A stretch of DNA of 64,000 bases from Arthrobacter sp. ERGS1:01 (GTDB lineage Bacteria > Actinomycetota > Actinomycetes > Actinomycetales > Micrococcaceae), in contig NZ_CP012479.1 in assembly GCF_001281315.1 (NCBI RefSeq), positions 992,001 through 1,056,000 on the forward strand. Direction: 5' to 3'. Below are positions 4,131-18,222 of the stretch, piece after piece; the first letter of the stretch is position 1, and each line of letters opens with the position of its first letter. Position numbers and translations under genes: made by a program. The notes under the pieces were generated by a model, which was not told the DNA's origin, did not search any database, and was given only the letters and a program-made list of their open reading frames with translations.

Positions 4131-6230
4131 CTACGTGAGCTTGTTCCAGCCGCTCCAGGGCCCGCCATGCGGCACGGTCTGCCAGATGTCATAGAGTGCG
4201 CCGTCCGAGCCGATGCCAAAGACCTCCAGCCTGCCGTCGGAATTGCGGTCCGCGGAAATCTGGGAAACCCAGCCGCCCAGCCTGTTCCAGCCGCTCCAGG
4301 GCCCGCCATGCGGCACGGTCTGCCAGATGTCATAGAGTGCGCCGTCCGAGCCGATGCCAAAGACCTCCATCCGGCCGTCGGAGTTGCATGCCACCGTCAG
4401 ATCGGAGATCCAGCCGCCCAGCTTGCTCCAACCGCTCCACGGTCCGCCCCCGGCCGAGGGCTGCCAGGCGTGGTAGAGCGCATTGTCGGCGCCGATGCCG
4501 AAGGCCTCGAGCCGGCCGTCGGTATTGCAGGCCACGGCGACCTTGGAGACCCAGCCGCCCAGGCTGTGCCAGCCGCTCCACGGCCCGGCGCCCGCGGAAG
4601 GCTGCCACGTGCTGTAGAGGGCATGGTCGGCGCCAATGCCGAACGCCTCGAGCCGGCCGTCGGCGTTGCGGGCCACGAACACTTGGGAGATCCAGCCGCC
4701 CAGGCTGTACCAGCCGCTCCACGGCCCCGCATGCGGGGCCGTCTGCCAGTTGCTGTACAGCGCGTTGTTGCCGCCGATGCCGAACAATTCCAGCCGGCCG
4801 TCGGTGTTGACGGCGATATCGAGCTCCGAAACCACCCCGCCCAGCCCGCTCCAGCCGCTCCAGGGCCCGGCGTGGGGCGCCGTCTGCCAGTCATGGTACG
4901 CGGCGTTGTCCGTGCCGATGCCGAAGATCTCCAGCCGGCCGTTGGTGTTCAGTGCCGTGCTCAGCGGCGTCTTGACCACCCCGCCCAGGGTGCCGGTTGG
5001 GCTCCACGGGCCCGAGTGCGGAACCGTCTGCCACATTGACCAGACGGACCCGTCGGTGCCGCGCAGGAACGCCTCCAAACGGCCGTCGCTGTTGACGGCG
5101 GCCGTGACCGCCGTTGCGGTCAACCGGGGGCGGTAGTAGATATCCACGGCGCCGCCGGGGTTGGCGTTGCTGACCACCAGGGCGCTTTGGCCGCAGTCGG
5201 TGACGGCGTCGACCGGGGCCCAGGCCAGGACGGGCCGGCCGTTGGCGGTTTGCAGGTCGATGCCGCCAAACGCCGTGAAATTCGTGGTGGGATAGTCCGA
5301 TGCCTGCGCCAGCCCGTAGGCCTCCAGGGTTTCCACGTTCCAGGTCAGCTCGTCGACGTTGCTGATGGGCAGGGACGTGTTGGCGATGCCCTGGAATTGG
5401 CAGTTGTAGCTGAATTGGTTTCCGGACCGGCCGGTCAACGTCATGACGCCCACCAACACGTCCCCGGGATTCACGGCCACGAGCGTGGTGTGGAAGGCCT
5501 GCCCGCCCTGGCCGTCGGCGTACCAGCTGGCCACCGACCAGTAGTTGCCGCCGCCCGCGGCCGACAGCCCCCACTGGAGCACCGGCTGGTAGATCATGGT
5601 GGAATTTTGGATCCCGTTGAACAGGAAGATCGTTTGGTTGTCCCTGCTTGCCGGCACGGGCGGAACCACCCATGTCGTGGCGAAGCGGGTGGTGGGGCTG
5701 CCGGTGCCGTTGCTCCAGCTCGCATAGGCGATCCAGCCGGTTCCCAGCGCCGGGACGAGGCCGGGGTGGGCGGCGACGTTGTGCGGCATCAGCGGGCGAC
5801 CGCCCGTGCGGGGCTCGACGACGCCAAAGTCGGCAAGCTCCGCGCCGGAGGCATGCAGGGCCTTCAGCGATCCGCCACCGGCCTCAAGATAGTGGTCCGG
5901 CGGAATTTGGTGGACCAGCGAGCTCCTGCGGTAGCCTCCCGGGGTCAGCACAAGATCGTCCGTGGCACCCTCGGCCATGGGCTCGCCCGCGGCGGCCGGC
6001 GCCCCCGGCACCTCGCGGGGTGCCATGCCGGCCGGCGGCCCACCGGCCGTTCCGCCAACGTCGGCCGTTCCGGCGTCGGCGGGAGCCGTCGGGAACATGG
6101 ACTCCGGAGGATCGGCGCTGCTTGGCGTGATGTCGCCCGAACCCGTGACCGTCTGGCCGGGTTCGACCCTGTGGACCATCTCCCGTGGCCGCATGCCCCC
6201 GGGTGTGAGGACCTCGTCGTTGCCGTTCAT
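4131..6230 (-). CDS. G1-peptidase-like (eqolisin fold) protein with seven-bladed PLL/tectonin-type propeller
   Basis: A 699-residue protein in three parts. The N-terminal ~120 residues hold two short repeats starting VLTPGGMR and VLTPGGYR. A middle domain (about 150-350) has the GWIAYASWSN, FATTWVVPP, IYQPVLQWG, YWSVASWY and VETLEAYG landmarks of G1 (eqolisin) peptidases, with candidate catalytic Gln and Glu. The C-terminus has seven ~47-residue repeats of the form N-x-DGRLE-x-FGIG-x-D-x-ALY-x-x-WQ, matching lectin-like propellers. The start at 6230 is chosen because GGAGG lies 8 bases upstream; a longer frame exists but has no such site. With this start there is no evident signal peptide, odd for a G1-type secreted enzyme. 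The last two blades are nearly identical in DNA. Confidence 0.75.
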   Translation of the reverse strand: MNGNDEVLTPGGMRPREMVHRVEPGQTVTGSGDITPSSADPPESMFPTAPADAGTADVGGTAGGPPAGMAPREVPGAPAAAGEPMAEGATDDLVLTPGGYRRSSLVHQIPPDHYLEAGGGSLKALHASGAELADFGVVEPRTGGRPLMPHNVAAHPGLVPALGTGWIAYASWSNGTGSPTTRFATTWVVPPVPASRDNQTIFLFNGIQNSTMIYQPVLQWGLSAAGGGNYWSVASWYADGQGGQAFHTTLVAVNPGDVLVGVMTLTGRSGNQFSYNCQFQGIANTSLPISNVDELTWNVETLEAYGLAQASDYPTTNFTAFGGIDLQTANGRPVLAWAPVDAVTDCGQSALVVSNANPGGAVDIYYRPRLTATAVTAAVNSDGRLEAFLRGTDGSVWSMWQTVPHSGPWSPTGTLGGVVKTPLSTALNTNGRLEIFGIGTDNAAYHDWQTAPHAGPWSGWSGLGGVVSELDIAVNTDGRLELFGIGGNNALYSNWQTAPHAGPWSGWYSLGGWISQVFVARNADGRLEAFGIGADHALYSTWQPSAGAGPWSGWHSLGGWVSKVAVACNTDGRLEAFGIGADNALYHAWQPSAGGGPWSGWSKLGGWISDLTVACNSDGRMEVFGIGSDGALYDIWQTVPHGGPWSGWNRLGGWVSQISADRNSDGRLEVFGIGSDGALYDIWQTVPHGGPWSGWNKLT
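4142..4369. repeat. Perfect 87-bp duplication inside the propeller gene
   Basis: Bases 4142-4228 and 4283-4369 are identical, 141 bp (47 codons, one propeller blade) apart. The other blades are diverged, so this is a recent duplication or gene conversion of the last blade. Confidence 0.9.
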
Positions 6231-7607: not shown

Positions 7608-8948
7608 GTGGACCGTCAGCAGGAATTTGTGTTGCGCACCATTGAAGAGCGCGACGTGCGGTTTGTCCGCCTGTGGTTCACCGATGTGGTGGGCAGCCTG
7701 AAATCGGTGGCCCTGGCGCCGGCCGAGGTGGAGGGCGCGTTCGAGGAGGGCCTGGGCTTTGACGGCTCGGCCATCGAGGGCCTGGCCCGGGTGTTTGAGT
7801 CGGACATGCTGGCCCAGCCGGACCCGTCGACCTTCCAAATCCTGCCCTGGCGCGGGAAGACCGAACAAACTTCGCGCATGTTTTGCGATGTGTTGACCCC
7901 CGACGGCGAACCGTCCGCCGCGGATCCCCGCAACGTCCTCAAGCGCACCCTGGCCAAGGCCGCGGACATGGGCTTCACCTGCTACACCCACCCGGAAATT
8001 GAGTTCTACCTGCTCAAGTCCTCCCAGCCCGGGCCGGACGGCATCCCGATCCCGGTGGACCAGGCCGGCTACTTCGACCATGTGCCGGGAGGTGTGGCCC
8101 AGGACTTCCGCCGCACTGCCGTCACCATGCTCGAGGACGTGGGCATCTCCGTGGAATTCAGCCACCACGAGGGCGGGCCCGGCCAGAACGAGATTGACCT
8201 GCGCTACGCCGATGCCCTGCAAACGGCCGACAACATCATGACGTTCCGCACCGTCATCCGCGAGGTGGCCATCCAGCAGGGCACCTACGCGACGTTCATG
8301 CCCAAGCCCTTCTCCGACCACCCGGGCTCGGGCATGCACACGCACTTCTCCTTGTTCGAGGGCGACACCAACGCCTTCCACGAGCCCGGTGCGGAATTCC
8401 AGCTGTCCAAGACCGCCCGCCAGTTCATGGCCGGCATCCTGCGCCACGCCCCCGAATTCACCGCCGTCACCAACCAGTTCGTGAACTCCTACAAGCGGCT
8501 CTGGGGTGGCGGGGAGGCGCCCAGCTACGTCTCCTGGGGCCATAACAACCGTTCGGCGCTGATGCGCGTGCCGCTGTACAAGCCCGGCAAGGGCCAGGCG
8601 TCCCGGCTCGAGTACCGCGGCATCGACTCCGCGGCCAACCCCTACCTGGCCTACGCCGTGCTCCTGGGCGCCGGGCTGAAGGGCATCGAGGAAGGTTACG
8701 AGCTGCCGCCGGCCGCCGTGGAGGACATCGGCGCCCTGAACAGCACCGAGCGCCGCGCCCTGGGCCACCACCCGCTGCCCTCCAGCCTGCACGACGCCAT
8801 CCGCCAGATGGAGGAGTCCGAGCTGATGCCCGAGATCCTCGGCGAACAGGTCTTTGAGCACTTCCTGCGCAACAAGAGCGCGGAATGGCAGGAATACCGC
8901 CTCCAGGTCACCCCCTTCGAGATCAACCGCTACCTCGGGGTGCTGTAA
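7608..8948 (+). CDS. glnA2: Glutamine synthetase, GlnA2-type (short GSI)
   Basis: An ATP-dependent glutamate-ammonia ligase or a related ligase. The 446 residues match the short GSI-alpha type. Seen: GFDGSAIEG, EIEFYLLKS, the SHHEGGPGQNEIDLR metal/substrate segment, the GSGMHTHFSL ATP/metal motif, NSYKRL and NRSALMRVP. The NLYDLP-type adenylylation site of the long form is not present as such (GYELPP stands there). GTG start after AAAAGGGG. It is cotranscribed with glnE, 8 bp downstream, as in mycobacteria where the pair is glnA2-glnE. Some GlnA2-type enzymes of actinobacteria act on polyamines or other glutamate analogues, so the substrate is not certain. Confidence 0.9.
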   Translation: MDRQQEFVLRTIEERDVRFVRLWFTDVVGSLKSVALAPAEVEGAFEEGLGFDGSAIEGLARVFESDMLAQPDPSTFQILPWRGKTEQTSRMFCDVLTPDGEPSAADPRNVLKRTLAKAADMGFTCYTHPEIEFYLLKSSQPGPDGIPIPVDQAGYFDHVPGGVAQDFRRTAVTMLEDVGISVEFSHHEGGPGQNEIDLRYADALQTADNIMTFRTVIREVAIQQGTYATFMPKPFSDHPGSGMHTHFSLFEGDTNAFHEPGAEFQLSKTARQFMAGILRHAPEFTAVTNQFVNSYKRLWGGGEAPSYVSWGHNNRSALMRVPLYKPGKGQASRLEYRGIDSAANPYLAYAVLLGAGLKGIEEGYELPPAAVEDIGALNSTERRALGHHPLPSSLHDAIRQMEESELMPEILGEQVFEHFLRNKSAEWQEYRLQVTPFEINRYLGVL

Positions 8949-8956
8949 GGGCCGCG

Positions 8957-11900
8957 ATGAGTTCCCTCACCAGAGCCCTGATCACCAACGGGTTCTCCGA
9001 CCTGGAAAAAACCGAGCGGTTCCTTGGTTTCGCGGAATTGGCCGAACTGGACCAGGCGGAGCTGTTGGCCGCCCTGCGCGTTGCCAACAACCCCGATTTG
9101 GCGGTCCAGTCCCTGGTGCGCCTGCTCAGCGCCGCCCCCGCCGTCTACGCCAAACTCACGGTGACGGACAAGGAGTCGGGGCGGCAGGAACCCAACGAGG
9201 CGCTGTTCCGGCTCCTGGGCGCTTCCGAGGCGCTGGCCGACTTCCTGATCCGGCACCCGGAACACGTCGACGTGCTGGACACCCCCACCTCGCCCGAGCC
9301 GGCGCCGGTCGACGCCGGGGAGCTGCGGGCCTCGCTGCTGTCAGCGGTCGGTGCCGACCCGGCGTCGGCCATGCCCGTCGCGGCGGAAACCGGGACGGCG
9401 GCGCGGCTGGCCCTGCGCACCCGGTACCGGCGGCACCTGGCCGTCCTGGCCATCCGGGACCTGTGCGCCGCGTCCCCGCAGGACGTCATGCCCCTGGTGG
9501 GGGCGGAACTGGCGGACCTGGCCGCGGCCGCCCTCGACGCGGCCCTGGCCGTGGCTCGCGCCGAGGTCGCCGCCGTCTTCGCCCCCGACGCGGTGGCGGG
9601 CGTGCGGCTGGCCGTCATTGGCATGGGCAAGTGCGGGGCCCGGGAGCTGAACTATATTTCCGACGTCGACGTCATGTACGTGATTGAAACGGCCGACGGC
9701 GGCCCGGACGACGCCGATGCCGTCGCGATCGGCAATGCGCTGGCGTCCGCCGTGTCCCAGGCCATCTACGCCCCGGAACGCGAACCCGGCTTGTGGGAGG
9801 TGGATGCCAACCTGCGCCCCGAGGGCAAGGACGGCCCGCTGGTACGCACGCTCGATTCCTTCCTGAACTACTACGGGCGGTGGGCGCAGAGCTGGGAATT
9901 CCAGGCACTGCTGAAGGCCCGGGCCCTTGGCGGCGACCGTGAGCTGGGCCGGCGCTTTGAACAGGCCGTCTCGCCGCTGATCTGGACGTCCTCGGAACGG
10001 GAGGGCTTTGTCGCCTCGGTGCAGGGCATGCGCCGGCGGGTCACCGCGAACATCCCCGACGCCGAGGCCGGCCGCCAGATCAAGTTGGGCAAGGGCGGGC
10101 TGCGCGACGTCGAATTCACCGTCCAGCTGCTGCAGCTGGTGCACGGGAAGAATGACGAATCCATCCGGGTGAAGGCCACCACCGCCGCCATCGGCGCGCT
10201 CATGAAGGCCGGCTACATTGGCCGCACGGACGCCGCACACCTTGACGAGGCGTACAGGTACCTGCGCGTCCTGGAACACCGGATCCAGCTGGTGCACATG
10301 CGCCGCACCCACCTCATGCCCACGGCTCCCGAGCAGTTGCGCGCCCTGGCCCGGGCCGTGGCCGGGCCGCTGAGCATCAAGCGCCCCAGCGCGGAGTCCC
10401 TGCTGGCGGACTGGGCCAAGGTCAAGCGGCAGGTCAGCTCCCTGCACGAACGCATCTTCTACCGCCCCATCCTTGCCACGGCCGCGCATCTGAGTGCCGC
10501 CGACGCCGCCTTGACCACCGACGCCGCCCGGGCCAGGCTGGCCGCCCTGGGCTACCGGGACGCGGCCGGGGCGCAGCGCCACATCGAGGCGCTCACGGCC
10601 GGGGTGAGCCGCCGGGCCGCGCTGCAGCGCCAGCTGCTGCCGGTGCTCCTGAACTGGCTGGCCGACGGCGTCGACCCCGACGCCGGGCTGCTCGCCTTCC
10701 GCCGGGTGTCCGAGGCCCTGGGCACCTCGCACTGGTACCTGGGCATGCTGCGCGACCACCAGGCCGCGGCCGAAAGGCTCTGCCACGTCCTCTCCAGCTC
10801 CCGGCTCGTCACCGACCTGCTGGAGGTCTCCCCGGAGGCCACGGCCTGGTTTGGCAACGATAAGGAGCTGGTCCCGCTGTCCTTTGAGACGCAGTGGGCC
10901 GAGATCCAGTCCAAGATGTCCCGGCACCCCGAACCGGGGGAGGCCATCCGGCTGATCCGGTTGATCCGGCAGCGGGAGATCCTGCGCATCGCCATCGCCG
11001 ACTGCTCGGGGCTCTTGGGCCAGGACGACGTCGCCTCCGCACTCAGTGACGCCGACCGGGCCGCCGTGCTGGGCGCCCTGCTCGTGGCGGAATCGGCCGT
11101 CTATGCCGGGGAGCCGCCGCTGACCCGCGTGCTGGTGGTGGCCATGGGCCGGCAGGGTGGCCGGGAGATCGCCTACGGCTCCGACGCCGACGTCCTCTTT
11201 GTCCACCGCCCCGTCCAGGACGGGCCCGGCGCGGAGGAGGCTGCGGGGGAGCAGGCGCGGGCCATCGTGGCCAAGCTGACGGCCATGCTGACCCAGCCCG
11301 TCCGCCCGGCAATCCAGGCCGAACGGGTGCTCAGCGTCGACGCCGATCTCCGGCCCGAAGGCAAGAGCGGGCCCCTGGTGCGCTCCCTCGAGGCCTACCG
11401 GGAATACTATTCGCGCTGGTCCTCGCCCTGGGAGGCGCAGGCCCTGCTGCGCGCCCGGCCGCTGGCCGGTTCCGATGACCTCGCCGCCGACTTCGTGGCC
11501 ATGGCGGACCCCATCCGGTACCCGGCCGTGCTGCCGGACGCCGCGCTCCGGGAAATCAAGCTGCTCAAGGCTCGCATGGAGTCCGAGCGGCTTCCCCGCG
11601 GGGCCGATCCGGCCCGGCACGTGAAGTTGGGGCGCGGCGGACTCAGCGACGTCGAATGGCTTGTGCAGCTGTGGCAGTTGCAACACGCCCACCACCACGA
11701 GGGACTGCGCACCACCGCGACCCTCCCGGCCCTGCATGCGGCCACGGAGCTGGGACTGGTGGAGGCCGACGACGCCGAACTGCTCGAAGCCGCATGGCGG
11801 CTGGCCGGGAAGATCCGCAACGCCAACGTCATCTGGACCGGGAAAACCTCCGACCTCCTGCCCTCCGCACGCGGCGATCTGGAGGCCGTGGCCCGCTGGT

Positions 11901-11998
11901 GCGGCTACGAGCCCGGCCACGCGGCCCGTTTCGAGGAGGACTACCTTGGCCTGACCCGCCGCTGCCGGGCCGTGTTTGAACGGCTGTTCTACGGCTAG
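8957..11998 (+). CDS. glnE: Bifunctional glutamine synthetase adenylyltransferase / adenylyl-removing enzyme
   Basis: Sets glutamine synthetase activity by adding AMP to, or removing it from, a tyrosine of GlnA1 in response to nitrogen status. The 1013 residues hold two nucleotidyltransferase domains: the N-terminal (deadenylylating) GMGKCGARELNYISDVDVMYV and the C-terminal (adenylylating) AMGRQGGREIAYGSDADVLFV, each with its D-x-D metal pair, followed by helical GlnD_UR-like regions. I start at ATG 8957 (MSSLTRALITNGF), 8 bp after the glnA2 stop; a 24-codon upstream extension would overlap glnA2. The target GlnA1 (58110) keeps Tyr402, but the prophage now separates the two genes. The TAG stop shares its CTAG with the stop of the sulfatase gene on the other strand. 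Confidence 0.96.
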   Translation: MSSLTRALITNGFSDLEKTERFLGFAELAELDQAELLAALRVANNPDLAVQSLVRLLSAAPAVYAKLTVTDKESGRQEPNEALFRLLGASEALADFLIRHPEHVDVLDTPTSPEPAPVDAGELRASLLSAVGADPASAMPVAAETGTAARLALRTRYRRHLAVLAIRDLCAASPQDVMPLVGAELADLAAAALDAALAVARAEVAAVFAPDAVAGVRLAVIGMGKCGARELNYISDVDVMYVIETADGGPDDADAVAIGNALASAVSQAIYAPEREPGLWEVDANLRPEGKDGPLVRTLDSFLNYYGRWAQSWEFQALLKARALGGDRELGRRFEQAVSPLIWTSSEREGFVASVQGMRRRVTANIPDAEAGRQIKLGKGGLRDVEFTVQLLQLVHGKNDESIRVKATTAAIGALMKAGYIGRTDAAHLDEAYRYLRVLEHRIQLVHMRRTHLMPTAPEQLRALARAVAGPLSIKRPSAESLLADWAKVKRQVSSLHERIFYRPILATAAHLSAADAALTTDAARARLAALGYRDAAGAQRHIEALTAGVSRRAALQRQLLPVLLNWLADGVDPDAGLLAFRRVSEALGTSHWYLGMLRDHQAAAERLCHVLSSSRLVTDLLEVSPEATAWFGNDKELVPLSFETQWAEIQSKMSRHPEPGEAIRLIRLIRQREILRIAIADCSGLLGQDDVASALSDADRAAVLGALLVAESAVYAGEPPLTRVLVVAMGRQGGREIAYGSDADVLFVHRPVQDGPGAEEAAGEQARAIVAKLTAMLTQPVRPAIQAERVLSVDADLRPEGKSGPLVRSLEAYREYYSRWSSPWEAQALLRARPLAGSDDLAADFVAMADPIRYPAVLPDAALREIKLLKARMESERLPRGADPARHVKLGRGGLSDVEWLVQLWQLQHAHHHEGLRTTATLPALHAATELGLVEADDAELLEAAWRLAGKIRNANVIWTGKTSDLLPSARGDLEAVARWCGYEPGHAARFEEDYLGLTRRCRAVFERLFYG

Positions 11999-13506
11999 GG
12001 CAGTCCCTGGGCGTCCAGCAGGGCTCGGGTGTGGGCCAGGATGCCCGTCACGGGCGCGCCCGTGACAAGCTCGCCGTCGCGCTCGAAGCCCTCCTCGCGG
12101 CCCGCGAGGTCCCGCACCAGCCGGCCCTTCCACAGGGCCAGCAGTTCGGCGTATTCGGGGAGCGGGGCGAGGTTGTGCATTTCGCCGGGGTCGGCGTCGA
12201 GGTCGAAAAGCTCCTCGGTGCCCCATTCCGAAGCCCACAGATACTTCACATGGCCGTCGGTCACCCACTGCAGGGACTGGCCAAAGTAGACGTGCTCGCC
12301 GTGCAGCCACTTACGCCACGGAACTGCCGGCGCCGCCTCGGCGGGCGCCGGGGCCGGCGTCGGCCGCAGGAACGGCACCAGGGAACGGCCGTCGCAGCTT
12401 TCCGGAATCGGCACGCCCGCCAGCTCCAACAGGGTTGGCATGAGGTCGCGCAGCTCGACCACCTCATCCACCACGGCACCCCTGACGGCGTCGGCGTCGG
12501 ACGGGGCCGGGGCCACGATGAACGGCACCCGGGCCGAGCCCTCGTAACCGACGGCCTTGCGATAAAAATCGTGGTCGCCCAGCATCTCGCCATGATCGGA
12601 GGTGAACGCAACGATCGTGTCCCGGGCCAGGCCAAACTCATTCAGCGCCTCAAAAAGCCGCATCAGCTGCAAATCGATATGGGTCATCAGCCCGTAGTAG
12701 CCGGCCCGGGCGCGGTGCGTGACGGCTTCGGACAAGGTGCCGAAGGCCAGCTGGTGGTTGCCGTTGGTCCGCACGGATTCATAGTGGTGTTCCCAGTCGC
12801 CGAGCCTGCGCTTGAAGGCCGGCAGGTCAAGGTACATCTCCATGGCCCAGGCGGGCGGGTCGTAGGGCGGGTGCGGGCGGTGGAAGGACAGGTAGAGGAA
12901 GAACGGGACGGTGGGGTCCCGGCGGAACAGCCATTCCACGGCCTGCGAACCCGTCCACGACGTCGGGTGCAGGCGCTCGGCCTTGTCCCAGGGCCGGGCC
13001 ACGGTGGAATTGCAGCCGGCGCCGTGGTCAAAGTATTCCTCGTCGGGGCTGACGCCCGGTTGCCGGCGCAGCCACGGCACATAGTCGTCAAAGTACTTGA
13101 AGTTCAGCTTGTGTTCGGCCCGGGCCGCGTGCAGGAAACCGTCGTGAAGCACGACGTCGTCAAAGCCCACCCGGCTGCGTTCGGGGTACACGTGCATCTT
13201 CCCGATGGCCTGGGTCTGGTAACCGGCCTTGCGGAACTCGCCCTGCAATGTCACGGGGTGGGCAACGTCGAAGGGGACGCCCTCCTGGTAGCCGACCCGC
13301 CCGTGGCGTTCCTGGGACTGGCCGGTAAACAAGGCGACCCGGGCCGGCACGCAGGTGGGCGTGGCCGAATAGGCGTGCCGGAAACGGGCGCCCTTGCCGG
13401 CCAGCTCGTCCAGATGCGGGGTCTGCACATGGGGGTGCCCCTCCGCGCCGAGGCAGTCGCCGCGCCACTCGTCGGCGCAGATCAGGATCACATTGGCTCG
13501 GCCCAT
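11995..13506 (-). CDS. Sulfatase (arylsulfatase/alkaline phosphatase superfamily)
   Basis: A 503-residue hydrolase. The Cys-type sulfatase signature TPTCVPARVALFTG is present with Cys52 as the residue to be converted to formylglycine. The N-terminal metal Asp segment ILICADEWRGD, SDHGEMLGDH and the FHRPHPPYDPP segment also fit arylsulfatase or choline-sulfatase relatives. Start taken at MGRANVILIC (13506) after GGAAGGGA; 16 more codons are open upstream without a site. No signal peptide is seen, so a cytoplasmic enzyme is likely, which would need a formylglycine-generating enzyme encoded elsewhere. Convergent with glnE: the two stops overlap in one CTAG. Confidence 0.88.
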   Translation of the reverse strand: MGRANVILICADEWRGDCLGAEGHPHVQTPHLDELAGKGARFRHAYSATPTCVPARVALFTGQSQERHGRVGYQEGVPFDVAHPVTLQGEFRKAGYQTQAIGKMHVYPERSRVGFDDVVLHDGFLHAARAEHKLNFKYFDDYVPWLRRQPGVSPDEEYFDHGAGCNSTVARPWDKAERLHPTSWTGSQAVEWLFRRDPTVPFFLYLSFHRPHPPYDPPAWAMEMYLDLPAFKRRLGDWEHHYESVRTNGNHQLAFGTLSEAVTHRARAGYYGLMTHIDLQLMRLFEALNEFGLARDTIVAFTSDHGEMLGDHDFYRKAVGYEGSARVPFIVAPAPSDADAVRGAVVDEVVELRDLMPTLLELAGVPIPESCDGRSLVPFLRPTPAPAPAEAAPAVPWRKWLHGEHVYFGQSLQWVTDGHVKYLWASEWGTEELFDLDADPGEMHNLAPLPEYAELLALWKGRLVRDLAGREEGFERDGELVTGAPVTGILAHTRALLDAQGLP

Positions 13507-13769
13507 GTGTGGTTCCCTTCCAGTCACTCCCCGTGGCGGGAACTTGTAGGACATTATCGCTTCAGCCTAGTGCGGCACGATGGCGGGATGCGTTTTCCCT
13601 TTGTGAAACCGGCAAAAGTTACGTGACACAGGGGGTGGACTTTAGTGCGCCGGGTGGACGAAACTAAAGAAGACAAGTGCGTAGTTCTCATATATGCCTG
13701 CCAATCCGCGCTAGCGCGCGGTCGTTTGGGGCCAAATGGCCGGTCGAAAATTACTCTTGAGGGGTTTCC

Positions 13770-14303
13770 ATGAAGAGACGTCAACCAGTGGGGCACGCTC
13801 GGATCGGCATTGCTGCCGCGTTCGGTGCCCTTTTCGCTATTTTTGCCATGTTCTTCGGAGTTGGTGGCGCTTCGGCGGCAACGACCCCGCAGGGCCCGTG
13901 GATCTGGCCGCATTCGGCGGTTGTTGCGGCGCCGGCCGCACAGGGTCCGTGGATCTGGCCGAACGCCGTGAAGGCTGACCAGGGCACCCAGTTGGTGCCG
14001 TGGATCTGGCCGAACGCCGTGAAGGCTGACCAGGGCACCCAGTTGGTGCCGTGGATCTGGCCGAACGCGGTCAAGGCTGACCAGGGCACCCAGTTGGTGC
14101 CGTGGATCTGGCCGAACGCGGTCAAGGCTGACCAGGGCACCCAGTTGGTGCCGTGGATCTGGCCGAACGCGGTCAAGGCTGACCAGGGCACCCAGTTGGT
14201 GCCGTGGATCTGGCCGAACGCCGCCAAGGGTGGAACGTCGACCCAGTTGGTGCCGTGGATCTGGCCCAACGCAGCCAAGGGTGGCACGCTCACCAGCGCC
14301 TAG
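13770..14303 (+). CDS. Secreted tandem-repeat protein with eight PWIWP motifs
   Basis: A 177-residue protein not recognised from any family. Residues 1 to about 36 form a signal peptide (basic start, hydrophobic core, GGASA-A cleavage). The mature part is almost wholly a repeat: eight PWIWP cores, the last seven spaced by exactly 17 residues, with five identical units of PWIWPNAVKADQGTQLV followed by two NAAKGG variants. At DNA level these are 51-bp tandem units. A ribosome binding site (TGAGGGG) precedes the ATG, and a strong terminator follows, so it is a monocistronic gene. The composition (Trp and Pro in every unit, one Lys-Ala-Asp linker) suggests either a cell-surface repeat protein or a multi-core peptide precursor cut between units. 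No processing enzyme lies next to it. Confidence 0.8.
   Translation: MKRRQPVGHARIGIAAAFGALFAIFAMFFGVGGASAATTPQGPWIWPHSAVVAAPAAQGPWIWPNAVKADQGTQLVPWIWPNAVKADQGTQLVPWIWPNAVKADQGTQLVPWIWPNAVKADQGTQLVPWIWPNAVKADQGTQLVPWIWPNAAKGGTSTQLVPWIWPNAAKGGTLTSA
13947..14300 (+). repeat. 51-bp in-frame tandem repeats
   Basis: Seven units beginning CCGTGGATCTGGCC at 13947, 13998, 14049, 14100, 14151, 14202 and 14253. The period is a whole number of codons. Units 2-5 are nearly identical, including silent positions, which points to recent expansion. Confidence 0.95.
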
Positions 14304-14663
14304 CCACCACAGTATGTGGTGAAGGTGGTCGGCCGGGATTCCTGGCCGGCCACCTTTTTCATGTCAGCACGGCCCATCAGCGGCGTCGTCGATAGTGGTT
14401 GGCGGGAGGGAGTCGTTGGCAAGGCCCACAATTTAGGTGACTGATTATTGTGATCATGACCAAAGCAATGAGGCGTGGATCACACTATATTTGAGAATGT
14501 GCCGCGCAACCCCGCTGAGGGCACGATGAACCACTTGGATCCTGGCCCGCACCACCAATGACGGGAATGGCGAAAAGTTTTGTCCCGCCAGATTTTCGAA
14601 TTCCGCCACCGGCGCGCCCGTGCCGGCGGCGGCTTCGGTCCAGGAGTCAAAGGAGACCCTGCC
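14304..14663. other. Gap between the repeat gene and the 51-residue gene
   Basis: 360 bp holding the terminator at 14324-14359 and the ribosome binding site of the next gene. A TATATT at about 14485 could be a -10. No other convincing frame is seen on either strand. Confidence 0.4.
14324..14359 (+). terminator. Rho-independent terminator after the PWIWP gene
   Basis: Arms at 14324-14334 and 14344-14354 pair over 11 bp with one G-U pair, followed by TTTTT at 14355-14359. Confidence 0.85.
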
Positions 14664-14819
14664 ATGCCGTCCACACTCACCGCCAGCCGTCCAGTCGTTA
14701 CCCCGATCCGCACCGATCCCGGCCCGCGCCCCATCGTCCAAACCCCGGTCAAAGTGACGGACCACTTCGCCACCTGTGAGGACGAATGCCCCTACTGCTG
14801 GGGCCCGGAAACCGACTAA
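14664..14819 (+). CDS. Small cysteine-containing protein, 51 residues
   Basis: Not recognised. ATG 14664 follows a strong AAAGGAGA site. The first ~30 residues are Thr/Pro/Val-rich with basic residues, and the end carries CEDECPYCW, a C-x3-C-x2-C cluster that could bind metal or undergo modification. No signal peptide or membrane segment. It stands alone, 145 bp before the ABC transporter gene. The good ribosome site and clean stop argue for a real gene; a peptide precursor is one possibility but there is no modifying enzyme beside it. Confidence 0.55.
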   Translation: MPSTLTASRPVVTPIRTDPGPRPIVQTPVKVTDHFATCEDECPYCWGPETD

Positions 14820-14964
14820 ACGCCGTTCCGTCCCGCGATACGCATAGAATTTACCTTTGACCGCTGCGTGTGGGGGCACTGTCCACGCCGCACAGTGCCG
14901 TGAAAACATGCCAAAAAGCCCTGGCATGCCGCCGCGAACCGCACCAAAAATCTAAGGATGGTTC

Positions 14965-16479
14965 TTGATCTTGAACACTTACCGATTGGCCACCAGACGT
15001 GGGAGGGCCGCGCTCGGCGCCGCACTGACCGTCATGGCCCTGTTCCTGGGCATGGCCTCAGCCACCGCCGTGGTCCCCGCCAGCCAATCCGCGGCACCCG
15101 CTGTGGCACCCGTCGTCGCACCGGCCGCAGGAGTGCAGGGCAAGACCTTCACCATCGGCACCGACACCACGTTCGCACCGTTTGAATTCCACAACGGCAG
15201 CGGCGACCTGGTGGGCATCGACATGGACCTGATCCGGGCCATTGCCAAGGAGCAGGGTTTCTCCGTCAACATCAAGTCCCTCGGCTTCGACGCGGCCCTC
15301 CAGGCGCTGCAGTCCAACCAGGTGGACGGCGTCATTGCCGGCATGTCCATTACGGACAAGCGCAAACTGGTCTTCGACTTCTCGGACCCCTACTTCACCT
15401 CGGGCATCCAGATGGCCGTGGCGAAGGGCAACGACTCCATCAAGTCCTACGCCGACCTCAAGGGCAAGACGGTTGCCGTCAAGCGCGGCAGCGAGGGCGA
15501 GACGTTTGCCAACTCGATCAAGGCCAAGTACGACTTCACGGTCAAGGCACTGGACCAGTCCGCCACCATGTACGACGACGTCAAGGCCGGCAACTCCGTG
15601 GCCGTCTTCGACGACTACCCGGTCCTGGCCTATGGCATCAGCCAGAACAACGGCCTGAAGATCGTCACGCCCAAGGAGCAGGGCAGCTCGTACGGTTTCG
15701 CCGTCAACAAGGGCCAGAACGCCGATCTCCTCGCCGCGTTCAACACCGGCCTGGCCCATTTGAAGGCCGACGGCCAATACCAGGCGATCCTGGACAAGTA
15801 TCTGGCCGCCCCCGAAGCCGCGGCCAACACCAGCTTCTGGAGCTTGTTGACCAACAGCTTCCCGGCGCTCATGAAGGGCCTGGGCCTGACCCTGCTGGCC
15901 ACGGCCCTGAGCCTCGTGATCGCCCTGGTCCTGGGTGTCCTGTTCGGATTTTTCAAGGTGGGCGAGAACAAGATCCTGCGTGCCGTGGCCACGATCTACG
16001 TAGCCATCTTCCGCGGCACCCCGCTGCTGGTCCAGGCGTTCTTCTTCTACTTCGGCCTGCCGCAGCTGACGGGAGTCCCGCTGCCCGTGCTGACCGCGGG
16101 CGTGCTCACACTGAGCCTGAACGCCGGTGCCTACATGACGGAGATCGTCCGCGGCGGCATCCAGTCGGTTGATCCCGGCCAGCTCGAAGCCAGCCGCAGC
16201 CTTGGGCTCAGCTATGCGACCTCGATGCGCCGCGTAGTGGTTCCGCAGGCCATCAAGATCATGACGCCGTCGTTCATCAACCAGTTCGTCATCACGCTCA
16301 AGGACACGTCCCTGCTGGCCGTCATCGGCTTCGCGGAACTGACCTACCAGGGCCAGCAGATCTACGCGTCCAACTTCCGCACCGGTGAAACGCTGCTGAT
16401 CGTTGCCGCAATCTACTTCGTCGTGATCACGCTGCTGACCCAGCTTTCCAACGTCCTGGACAGGAAGTTCAACAAATGA
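14965..16479 (+). CDS. Polar amino acid ABC transporter, fused substrate-binding protein and permease
   Basis: 504 residues. A signal/anchor segment ([19 protein letters not shown]) is followed by a type-3 solute-binding domain (about 60-285: [43 protein letters not shown]), then a His/Glu/Gln-type permease (about 290-500) with FRGTPLLVQ and the EAA-loop [10 protein letters not shown]. Fused GlnH-GlnP proteins are a known arrangement. Start is TTG at 14965 after AAGGA; an ATG at 14958 is out of frame. Upstream, CATGCCA and TGGCATG (14907-14928) form a small inverted repeat that could be an operator. The ATPase gene overlaps by ATGA. With glutaminase downstream, glutamine uptake is the best guess. 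Confidence 0.92.
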
Positions 16480-17216
16480 GCCAGCCGAACCCCAAAATCA
16501 GTGTCAAGGGCCTGAAGAAGTCCTTCGGCTCCAACGAGGTGCTCAAGGGCCTCGACGTCGACATCGCCGAGGGTGAGGTGGTCTGTGTGATCGGCCCCTC
16601 CGGTTCCGGAAAGTCCACGTTCCTGCGCTGCCTGAACAAGCTCGAGGACATCACCGGCGGCACCGTCGTGGTGAACGGCTTCGATTTGACCGAACCCAAG
16701 GTGGACCTGAACGCGGTCCGGCAGAACATCGGCATGGTGTTCCAGCACTTCAACCTGTTCCCGCACATGACGGTCATCCAGAACATCATGCTGGCACCCG
16801 TGGAGCTGAAGAAGTCCGACAAGGCGGGGGCCCGGGCCAAGGCCCTGGAACTCCTCAAGCGGGTGGGCCTGGAGGAAAAGGCCGACGCCCGTCCGGCGTC
16901 GCTCTCCGGCGGCCAGAAGCAGCGTGTGGCGATTGCCCGCGCCCTCGCCATGAACCCCGGCATCATGCTCTTCGACGAGGCCACCAGCGCCCTGGACCCC
17001 GAAATGGTGGGGGAGGTCCTGCAGGTCATCAAGGACCTGGCCAAGGAAGGCATGACCATGGTGGTGGTCACGCACGAGATGGGCTTCGCCCGCGAAGTCT
17101 CCGACAGGGTCATCTTCATGGCGGACGGCTTCATCTGCGAGGAAGGCACCCCGGAGGCCATCTTCTCCAACGCACAGCAGCCGCGCCTGCAGGACTTCCT
17201 GGCCAAGGTCCTCTAG
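16476..17216 (+). CDS. glnQ: Amino acid ABC transporter ATP-binding protein (GlnQ type)
   Basis: The 246-residue ATPase that powers the fused permease. Walker [10 protein letters not shown] is at 40-48, Q-loop in [11 protein letters not shown], signature LSGGQKQR, Walker [14 protein letters not shown]-loop in VVVTHEM. The start ATG overlaps the TGA of the permease gene, so the two are translationally coupled. The assignment to glutamine rather than another polar amino acid rests on family resemblance and the glutaminase gene next door. Confidence 0.93.
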
Positions 17217-17225
17217 CCTGCTTGA

Positions 17226-17254
17226 GGGGGTGGCCGTCGCCGGCGGCCACCCCC
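17226..17254 (+). terminator. Hairpin between transporter and glutaminase
   Basis: Perfect 11-bp GC stem (17226-17236 with 17244-17254) in the 94-bp gap. No U-run follows, so it may attenuate or protect the mRNA rather than terminate. Confidence 0.45.
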
Positions 17255-17310
17255 GGCCGCAGCGTCCGGCGTGCGGCCGCCCCAACACTCCCAACGGGAC
17301 GAGGAATCGC

Positions 17311-18222
17311 ATGGACATGCAGGCCACCCTGGAGGAGATCGTGAAAGCCGTGGCGCCGCTGAAGGGCCAGGGCACCGTGGCGTCCTACATTCCCAGCCTG
17401 GGCGGCGTCCCGCCGGAAAAGTTCGGGATCTGCGTGGCCATGGCCGACGGCCCCGTGTACGGTGCGGGGGACTGGCATGAGCCGTTCTCCATCCAAAGCA
17501 TCTCCAAGGTGTTCTCGCTGGCCCTGGTCATGGCCCGCGACTACGACTCCATCTGGAAGCGTGTGTTCCGTGAACCCTCCGGCACGCCGTTCAACTCACT
17601 GGTCCAGTTGGAGGCCGACAAGGGGATCCCGCGCAACCCGTTCATCAACGCCGGGGCCATTGTGGTCACCGACCGGCTGCTGACGCTCACGGGCGACGCC
17701 GCCGGCTCCATCCGCGGCCTGCTCCGCCAGGAGGCCGGCAACCCCACGATCGACATCGACGCCACGGTGGCCGCCTCGGAGGCCCGGCACGGGCACCGGA
17801 ACGCCGCCATGGCGCACCTGCTGGCCAGCTTCGGCAACCTGGAAAACCCCGTCGACGACGTCCTGGCCAACTACTTCGACCAATGTGCGTTGGCCATGTG
17901 CTGCGAAGACCTGGCCCTGTCGGCGAGGTTCCTGGCCCGCCAGGGAGTATCCACGGGCGGGTCGCCGTTCCTGAGCCCCAACCAGAGCAAGCGGGTCAAC
18001 GCCGTCATGCTCACCTGCGGAACCTACGACGCGGCGGGGGAGTTCGCCTACCGGGTGGGGCTGCCCGGCAAGAGCGGGGTGGGCGGCGGCATCGTCGCCA
18101 TTGTTCCGGGCCGCTGTTCCATCGCGGTCTGGGGGCCCGAGCTGGATGCCAACGGAAACTCGGTGGTTGGTACGGCCGCCCTCGATGAGTTCACCACCCG
18201 CACCGGCTGGTCGGTCTTCTAG
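17311..18222 (+). CDS. glsA: Glutaminase A
   Basis: Hydrolyses glutamine to glutamate and ammonia. The 303 residues have the serine-dependent beta-lactamase-like glutaminase pattern: S63-I-S-K66 within FSIQSISKVFSLAL, FNSLVQLE, NPFINAGAI, the CALAMCCEDL segment and GVGGGIVAI. I start at ATG 17311 behind GAGGAA, giving the family length; 27 extra codons upstream are open but unlike the family. It follows the glutamine-type transporter in the same direction, forming an uptake-and-hydrolysis set. Confidence 0.95.
   Translation: MDMQATLEEIVKAVAPLKGQGTVASYIPSLGGVPPEKFGICVAMADGPVYGAGDWHEPFSIQSISKVFSLALVMARDYDSIWKRVFREPSGTPFNSLVQLEADKGIPRNPFINAGAIVVTDRLLTLTGDAAGSIRGLLRQEAGNPTIDIDATVAASEARHGHRNAAMAHLLASFGNLENPVDDVLANYFDQCALAMCCEDLALSARFLARQGVSTGGSPFLSPNQSKRVNAVMLTCGTYDAAGEFAYRVGLPGKSGVGGGIVAIVPGRCSIAVWGPELDANGNSVVGTAALDEFTTRTGWSVF

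Follow-up and report, generated by a model that had tools for sequence, protein, structure and literature searches.

A WIWP tandem-repeat gene within the glutamine gene cluster of Arthrobacter

The repeat gene and its protein

The window analyzed here, a stretch of 64,000 nucleotides from the genome of Arthrobacter sp. ERGS1:01, contains a cluster of glutamine genes identified by profile matches. Genes for glutamine synthetase (glnA; 7608-8948) and glutamine synthetase adenylyltransferase (glnE; 8885-11998) lie on the forward strand and are followed by a gene for an arylsulfatase-type enzyme on the reverse strand (11995-13554). Further along, again on the forward strand, are genes for an amino-acid ABC transporter in which a solute-binding domain is fused to a permease (14965-16479), a GlnQ-type ABC ATPase (16476-17216), and a glutaminase (17230-18222). 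Between the sulfatase and transporter genes lies the WIWP-repeat gene, an ORF of 177 amino acids with an ATG start (13770-14303, forward strand, stop codon included).

A sequence-only reading of this ORF had described a signal peptide and eight PWIWP cores, and both are confirmed. The protein begins with a hydrophobic segment followed by GASA|AT, which by eye and hydropathy was judged to be a signal peptide of 36 residues (13770-13877). Repeat analysis and a count of the cores place the eight PWIWP copies at 13896-14267, with a spacing of 51 bases. The exact 17-residue period had been ascribed to the last seven cores only; the period holds, and the regularity was understated, because all seven intervals, the first included, are exactly 17 residues long. 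The DNA is nearly identical from unit to unit, as had been noted: Tandem Repeats Finder reports 6.5 copies of a 51-base period at 13947-14280, with 95% matches and a score of 554. A separate tandem repeat is present elsewhere in the window (4138-4949; period 141 bases, 5.8 copies, 78%).

The gene appears to have expression signals of its own. The proposed ribosome site is present as GAGGGG (13759-13764, forward strand), identified by eye 5 nt 5' of the ATG. Farther upstream, a block at 13633-13690 (forward strand) is partly conserved, mainly in comparison with genomes G018, G021, and G009, and is a candidate promoter or 5' leader. Behind the gene, folding identifies a 16-pair hairpin followed by T's (14322-14356, forward strand; z of -7.5 for a 62-base stretch), a likely transcription terminator. 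The earlier claim of a terminator is supported by this hairpin and not by the consensus rule: a scan of 13550-15000 returned neither a sigma-70-type promoter nor a terminator by its own rule, probably missing the hairpin because the folded stem uses part of the T run. A small second hairpin (14305-14321) lies between the stop codon and the long one. Rfam models had no match in the window at gathering scores.

The protein is probably exported, as its signal peptide suggests. Cysteine, an LPXTG motif, a lipobox, and a second hydrophobic segment are all absent from the nine proteins tested (that of G021 left out). Two AlphaFold2 predictions, from 8 and 9 sequences, have mean pLDDT values of 43.1 and 40.0, and the signal helix is the only helix or strand element in either, so that the protein is apparently unfolded according to these models; predictions made from so few sequences are weak evidence for disorder. 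Curated families gave matches below their cut-offs only (two in Pfam, one in NCBIfam), and PDB sequences gave none. The earlier description of a secreted repeat protein of no known family therefore stands in both parts, as far as secretion can be read from the signal peptide. Of its three functional guesses, a multi-copy peptide precursor is taken up below, and the other two fare less well: a wall-anchored surface protein would be at odds with the lack of an anchor motif, and an amyloid fibre finds no support in the structure predictions, whose scores are too low to decide the matter.

Conservation and distribution of WIWP-repeat proteins

We define the WIWP-repeat family as proteins with a signal-peptide-like start and at least three in-frame WIWP cores, a description that fits the window protein. 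Judged from sequence, it is a narrow, previously undescribed gene family; no description of such a protein was found in the open-licence literature, as judged by titles and the starts of abstracts. In a search of about 5.8 billion proteins there were six matches at E ≤10. Four of these are relatives (P0001 to P0004, E 9e-19 to 3e-10) that are probably metagenomic, given their sources (ena, mgnify, and lgn); P0001, whose contigs do not exceed 573 bases, may be truncated. The other two are weak (P0005, E 1.3; P0006, E 5.8), and P0006 contains WIWPN twice but lacks the remainder. When P0004 served as the protein query, only P0002 to P0004 matched. Compared with 395 genomes of the taxonomic family, P0004 matched 30 at E 0.01, with E <1e-4 only in the window's own genome (G000), G015, and G004.

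By DNA pattern, 6 of the 23 genus genomes scanned carry arrays, counting the window's own, and a reversed control pattern had no match in any of the 23. The number of cores is 8 in G000, 19 in G015, 7 in G004, 5 in G018, and 4 in G009. G021 has six in frame and a seventh out of frame, and was counted only up to the frameshift: one unit of its array (L190, about 10140-10250) is 5 bases longer and puts the seventh WIWP unit in another frame, a shift that may be genuine or an error of sequencing. The other five genomes have an uninterrupted frame. The sequence-only reading had named a lack of homologues with conserved repeats as one thing that would count against it, and the core is in fact kept in five other Arthrobacter genomes and four database proteins, with 3 to 19 copies across the ten proteins.

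A pattern scan of named genomes returned at least 118 stretches. Among the matches listed, four were recognized by eye as repeat genes with a signal peptide (L054, L063, L153, and L159), in A. silviterrae DSM 27180, A. cryoconiti Cr6-08, A. wenxiniae AETb3-4, and A. sp. SDTb3-6; these strains belong to the six array genomes and add no further carriers. The remaining listed stretches were set aside by eye as chance or low-complexity matches. At class level, 2 of 394 genomes have the pattern: the window's own and, with one pair, G279. A profile run against 396 genomes of the order at E 1e-8 recovered the window's own genome only. Plasmids had no match. Two records of one phage matched weakly (E 0.2) in a tape-measure gene, and none of 11 stretches in viral contigs was by eye a signal-peptide repeat gene. 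The samples are thin, and P0002 to P0004, which have another signal peptide, point to further carriers.

Across the ten proteins (six genomes and P0001 to P0004), every one of the 64 W-x-W cores reads WIWP, and two residues beyond the core there is always Ser or Ala (63 of 63). Comparison between proteins is fairer than the count of 64, because many cores are copies within one array; identity between the protein consensuses is 100% at the four core positions, 27% to 44% at six adjoining offsets, and 9% to 16% at four farther ones. Codon differences among modal-period units within arrays, summed over six genes, comprise 3 synonymous and 0 nonsynonymous changes in the core, and 17 synonymous and 27 nonsynonymous changes in the spacers. 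This codon evidence is supportive rather than strong, because all three core differences come from one gene, the other five contributing none, and Trp codons cannot change silently. The spacers differ between proteins in sequence, length, and charge, with a usual period of 15, 16, 17, 18, or 19 residues and a unit net charge of -2 to +2, often 0. The residue before the core is L or Q instead of P in the consensus of 4 of the 10 proteins, and the last residue is Ala in all eight proteins with a complete end. The WIWP core is probably the working part of the protein, as these four residues are identical in every copy.

Genomic neighborhood and origin of the gene

Gene order is the same in all six array genomes: glnA, glnE, (sulfatase), WIWP gene, transporter fusion, glnQ, and glutaminase. 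The neighbors common to the array loci are the glutamine genes, joined in the window by the sulfatase, and the WIWP gene is always upstream of the transporter fusion, at a distance of about 0.3 to 0.9 kb. No sulfatase match appeared in the fetched stretches of G004, G009, G015, and G021. In G018, three remnants of a sulfatase gene lie beside the WIWP gene (L189, 8678-9274). The array-free genomes that were fetched have the same cluster minus the WIWP gene, except for losses in G003, G013, and G010 and an absent sulfatase in L295. In the nine array-free loci with both genes, the gap between the sulfatase and transporter matches is 0.24 to 0.27 kb in seven. The exceptions are L193, with 0.45 kb, and L192, with 1.55 kb and an additional gene in the gap.

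A long hairpin follows every array, with a different sequence each time. In all six genomes, folding of the 120 bases downstream of the array surpasses the shuffle mean (z from -2.1 to -5.2). The weakest case is G004 (z of -2.1, a level reached by 1 of 100 shuffles); in G021 the hairpin lies beyond the stop codon that closes the seventh unit's frame. The recurrence of this element in 6/6 loci suggests that the WIWP gene is transcribed apart from the transporter.

A small ORF of 51 amino acids, ending CEDECPYCWGPETD, lies between the WIWP and transporter genes of the window (14664-14819, forward strand). It is preceded by a strong ribosome-site-like stretch, carries the C-terminal motif C-x3-CPYCWGPETD, and occupies the same place in five of the six array loci, G015 being the one in which it was not found. 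Relatives are present in L188, L189, L190, L191, L232, and L236, and besides the window's own protein, 12 database proteins match at E ≤10, three of them above E 1. It is retained with an altered motif in G013 and G003, both of which are without the array and the transporter. Small ORFs ending like C-x-YC-x-G-x-ETD are also found at other places in four genomes of the taxonomic family, L234 (G051), L237 (G028), L242 (G026), and L233 (G059, four matches), all as weak matches (E 5e-5 to 0.07); by eye, the one in G051 adjoins an amino-acid permease and the one in G026 a sulfatase-like gene.

In a GlnE tree of the 23 genomes (midpoint root, drawn open), the six carriers and the non-carriers G003 and G013 fall on one branch with support of 90/96. 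The array label requires 2 changes on this tree against a shuffle mean of 5.4, and 1 of 500 shuffles was as low. The WIWP gene appears dispensable, because no array was found in 17 of the 23 genomes, the close relatives G003 and G013 among them. Those two have no transporter or glnQ at this place but keep the small ORF, so the losses to either side of it seem to have been separate. G010 is likewise without array and transporter. Taken together, all three genomes without the transporter lack the array, as do 14 of the 20 with it.

The genome search offers a clue to the origin of the gene. It returned 16 matching genomes, six with arrays; in nine of the other ten, the match is to the N-terminus and falls where the orthologous transporter gene begins, and the tenth is a weak match that contains stops and lies in a different place. 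By profile, 13 of the 14 array-free, transporter-bearing genomes match at the transporter start; weak matches (E 4e-6 to 5e-4) also come from 11 genomes outside the genus. Local alignments of the signal peptides, scored against shuffled sequence instead of other signal peptides, have a mean z of 10.6 between WIWP proteins and transporters of four of the 14 array-free transporter genomes (24 pairs) and 7.4 between WIWP proteins and transporters of the six array-bearing genomes (36 pairs); set against each other, the two transporter groups average 6.1. The WIWP gene may therefore derive from a copied 5' end of the transporter gene, which is the simplest reading of this likeness, although signal peptides are generally short and alike in make-up, which weakens the argument. 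The DNA upstream of the start is not common to the two genes and does not confirm the copying. Replacement of the transporter's own signal peptide was considered and dropped, as the transporter of the array-bearing genomes still resembles the older type.

Possible roles of the repeated core

The combination of an invariant aromatic core with free spacers and a free copy number has the look of a multivalent sticker-and-spacer chain. Disordered repeat proteins of this kind, such as those of the elastin, silk, or adhesive type, carry a short invariant motif on variable low-complexity spacers, a design that the WIWP proteins resemble without homology; we know of no bacterial sticker-and-spacer protein with WIWP. 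From its anatomy, we tentatively favor a recent, lineage-restricted gene whose product is exported, has no native fold, and displays WIWP multivalently. Gram-positive surface repeat proteins, with LPXTG or choline-binding repeats, are likewise secreted and variable in copy number. The WIWP proteins share tandem repeats with them and differ in having no anchor motif, Pfam repeat, or predicted fold.

The main rival is a multi-copy precursor of secreted peptides, in which extracellular proteases would cut the chain into Trp-rich signal or inhibitor peptides of 15 to 19 residues or shorter; we consider it possible but rather unlikely. Freely varying spacers would equally be expected if the core were the useful product of a precursor, and the signal peptide, the near-identical units, the fixed core with drifting spacers, the varying copy number, and the absence of a predicted fold all agree with it. 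A precursor should keep a cutting site, yet a search for simple motifs (dibasic, A-x-A) found none common to nine proteins: dibasic pairs are absent from five genome proteins tested and present in three of four database proteins, the mature part of the G018 protein has no Lys or Arg, and A-x-A is sporadic. A protease that reads the core itself might still be at work. The co-occurring protease or modifying gene for which the sequence-only reading had proposed a check is missing from the nearest neighbors scanned with profiles. A modifying enzyme beside the gene at every locus would mark a RiPP precursor; the neighbors that the loci share are glutamine genes, with the sulfatase added in the window. 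The precursors of yeast alpha-factor have a signal peptide, tandem near-identical Trp-containing units in variable number, and conserved protease sites in their spacers; the WIWP proteins resemble them in the first two features, and for the last no simple site in common was found. A bolder proposal, which we regard as unlikely, makes the locus a bacterial equivalent of such precursors, linked to glutamine uptake: a recently born gene with an export signal from the adjacent amino-acid transporter gene, encoding an extracellular Trp-rich peptide or ligand carrier in multiple copies.

By analogy, the protein might instead be Trp/Pro-rich and membrane-active (antimicrobial-like), its PWxWP cores inserting at membrane interfaces, but this seems quite unlikely. 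Passages of PMC6017362 describe indolicidin (ILPWKWPWWPWRR) and tritrpticin (VRRFPWWWPFLRR) as Trp-rich mammalian peptides of 13 residues with several Arg/Lys and a PWxWP core. The likeness lies in this pattern and in the richness in Trp and Pro. These peptides are cationic, whereas the WIWP proteins are bacterial, tandem, and near-neutral (unit charge -2 to +2), with no demonstrated sequence homology to them, and even the proline before the core is L or Q in four of ten consensuses. Because the conserved positive charge is not kept, the resemblance is a likeness only, although charge alone does not exclude membrane activity, since low-charge and anionic antimicrobial peptides exist, as passages of the same source note (PMC6017362).

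We doubt strongly that the protein is an extracellular structural repeat that becomes ordered on assembly into a fibre, amyloid, or surface layer. Its regular period within arrays and sticky Trp-rich cores would suit such a role, but the usual period differs between proteins, every core ends in proline, and no fold is predicted. Still more improbable is a neutral coding minisatellite without protein function. The frameshifted G021 array and the 17 genus genomes without an array are in keeping with it; against it stand a core that is invariant across proteins whose spacers can hardly be aligned and a frame open throughout in five of six genomes. That the ORF is a translated regulatory leader, a Trp or stalling sensor for the downstream transporter, is hardly credible despite its place upstream of that gene in 6/6 genomes, given the long hairpin behind each array, the intervening 0.3 to 0.9 kb, and up to 19 units, which would be hard to fit to a sensor.

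In the sticker-and-spacer reading, the gene would have arisen within the glutamine cluster through copying of the 5' end of the neighboring transporter gene, with its signal peptide, and tandem amplification of a short coding unit. The chain would exit the cell by the Sec route, without covalent attachment to the wall, and carry W-I-W-P-x-[S/A] several times over, on soluble spacers that are free to change. Its WIWP core would bind a putative partner, whether a membrane surface, a wall polymer, the extracellular matrix, or another protein, with copy number setting the avidity. The locus would then be a compact natural case of possible gene birth, combining a borrowed export signal with tandem amplification, in which one four-residue motif is fixed while the remainder drifts and array length ranges from 3 to 19. 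Motif, spacer, and valence are separable for testing, and several of the carriers are named strains.
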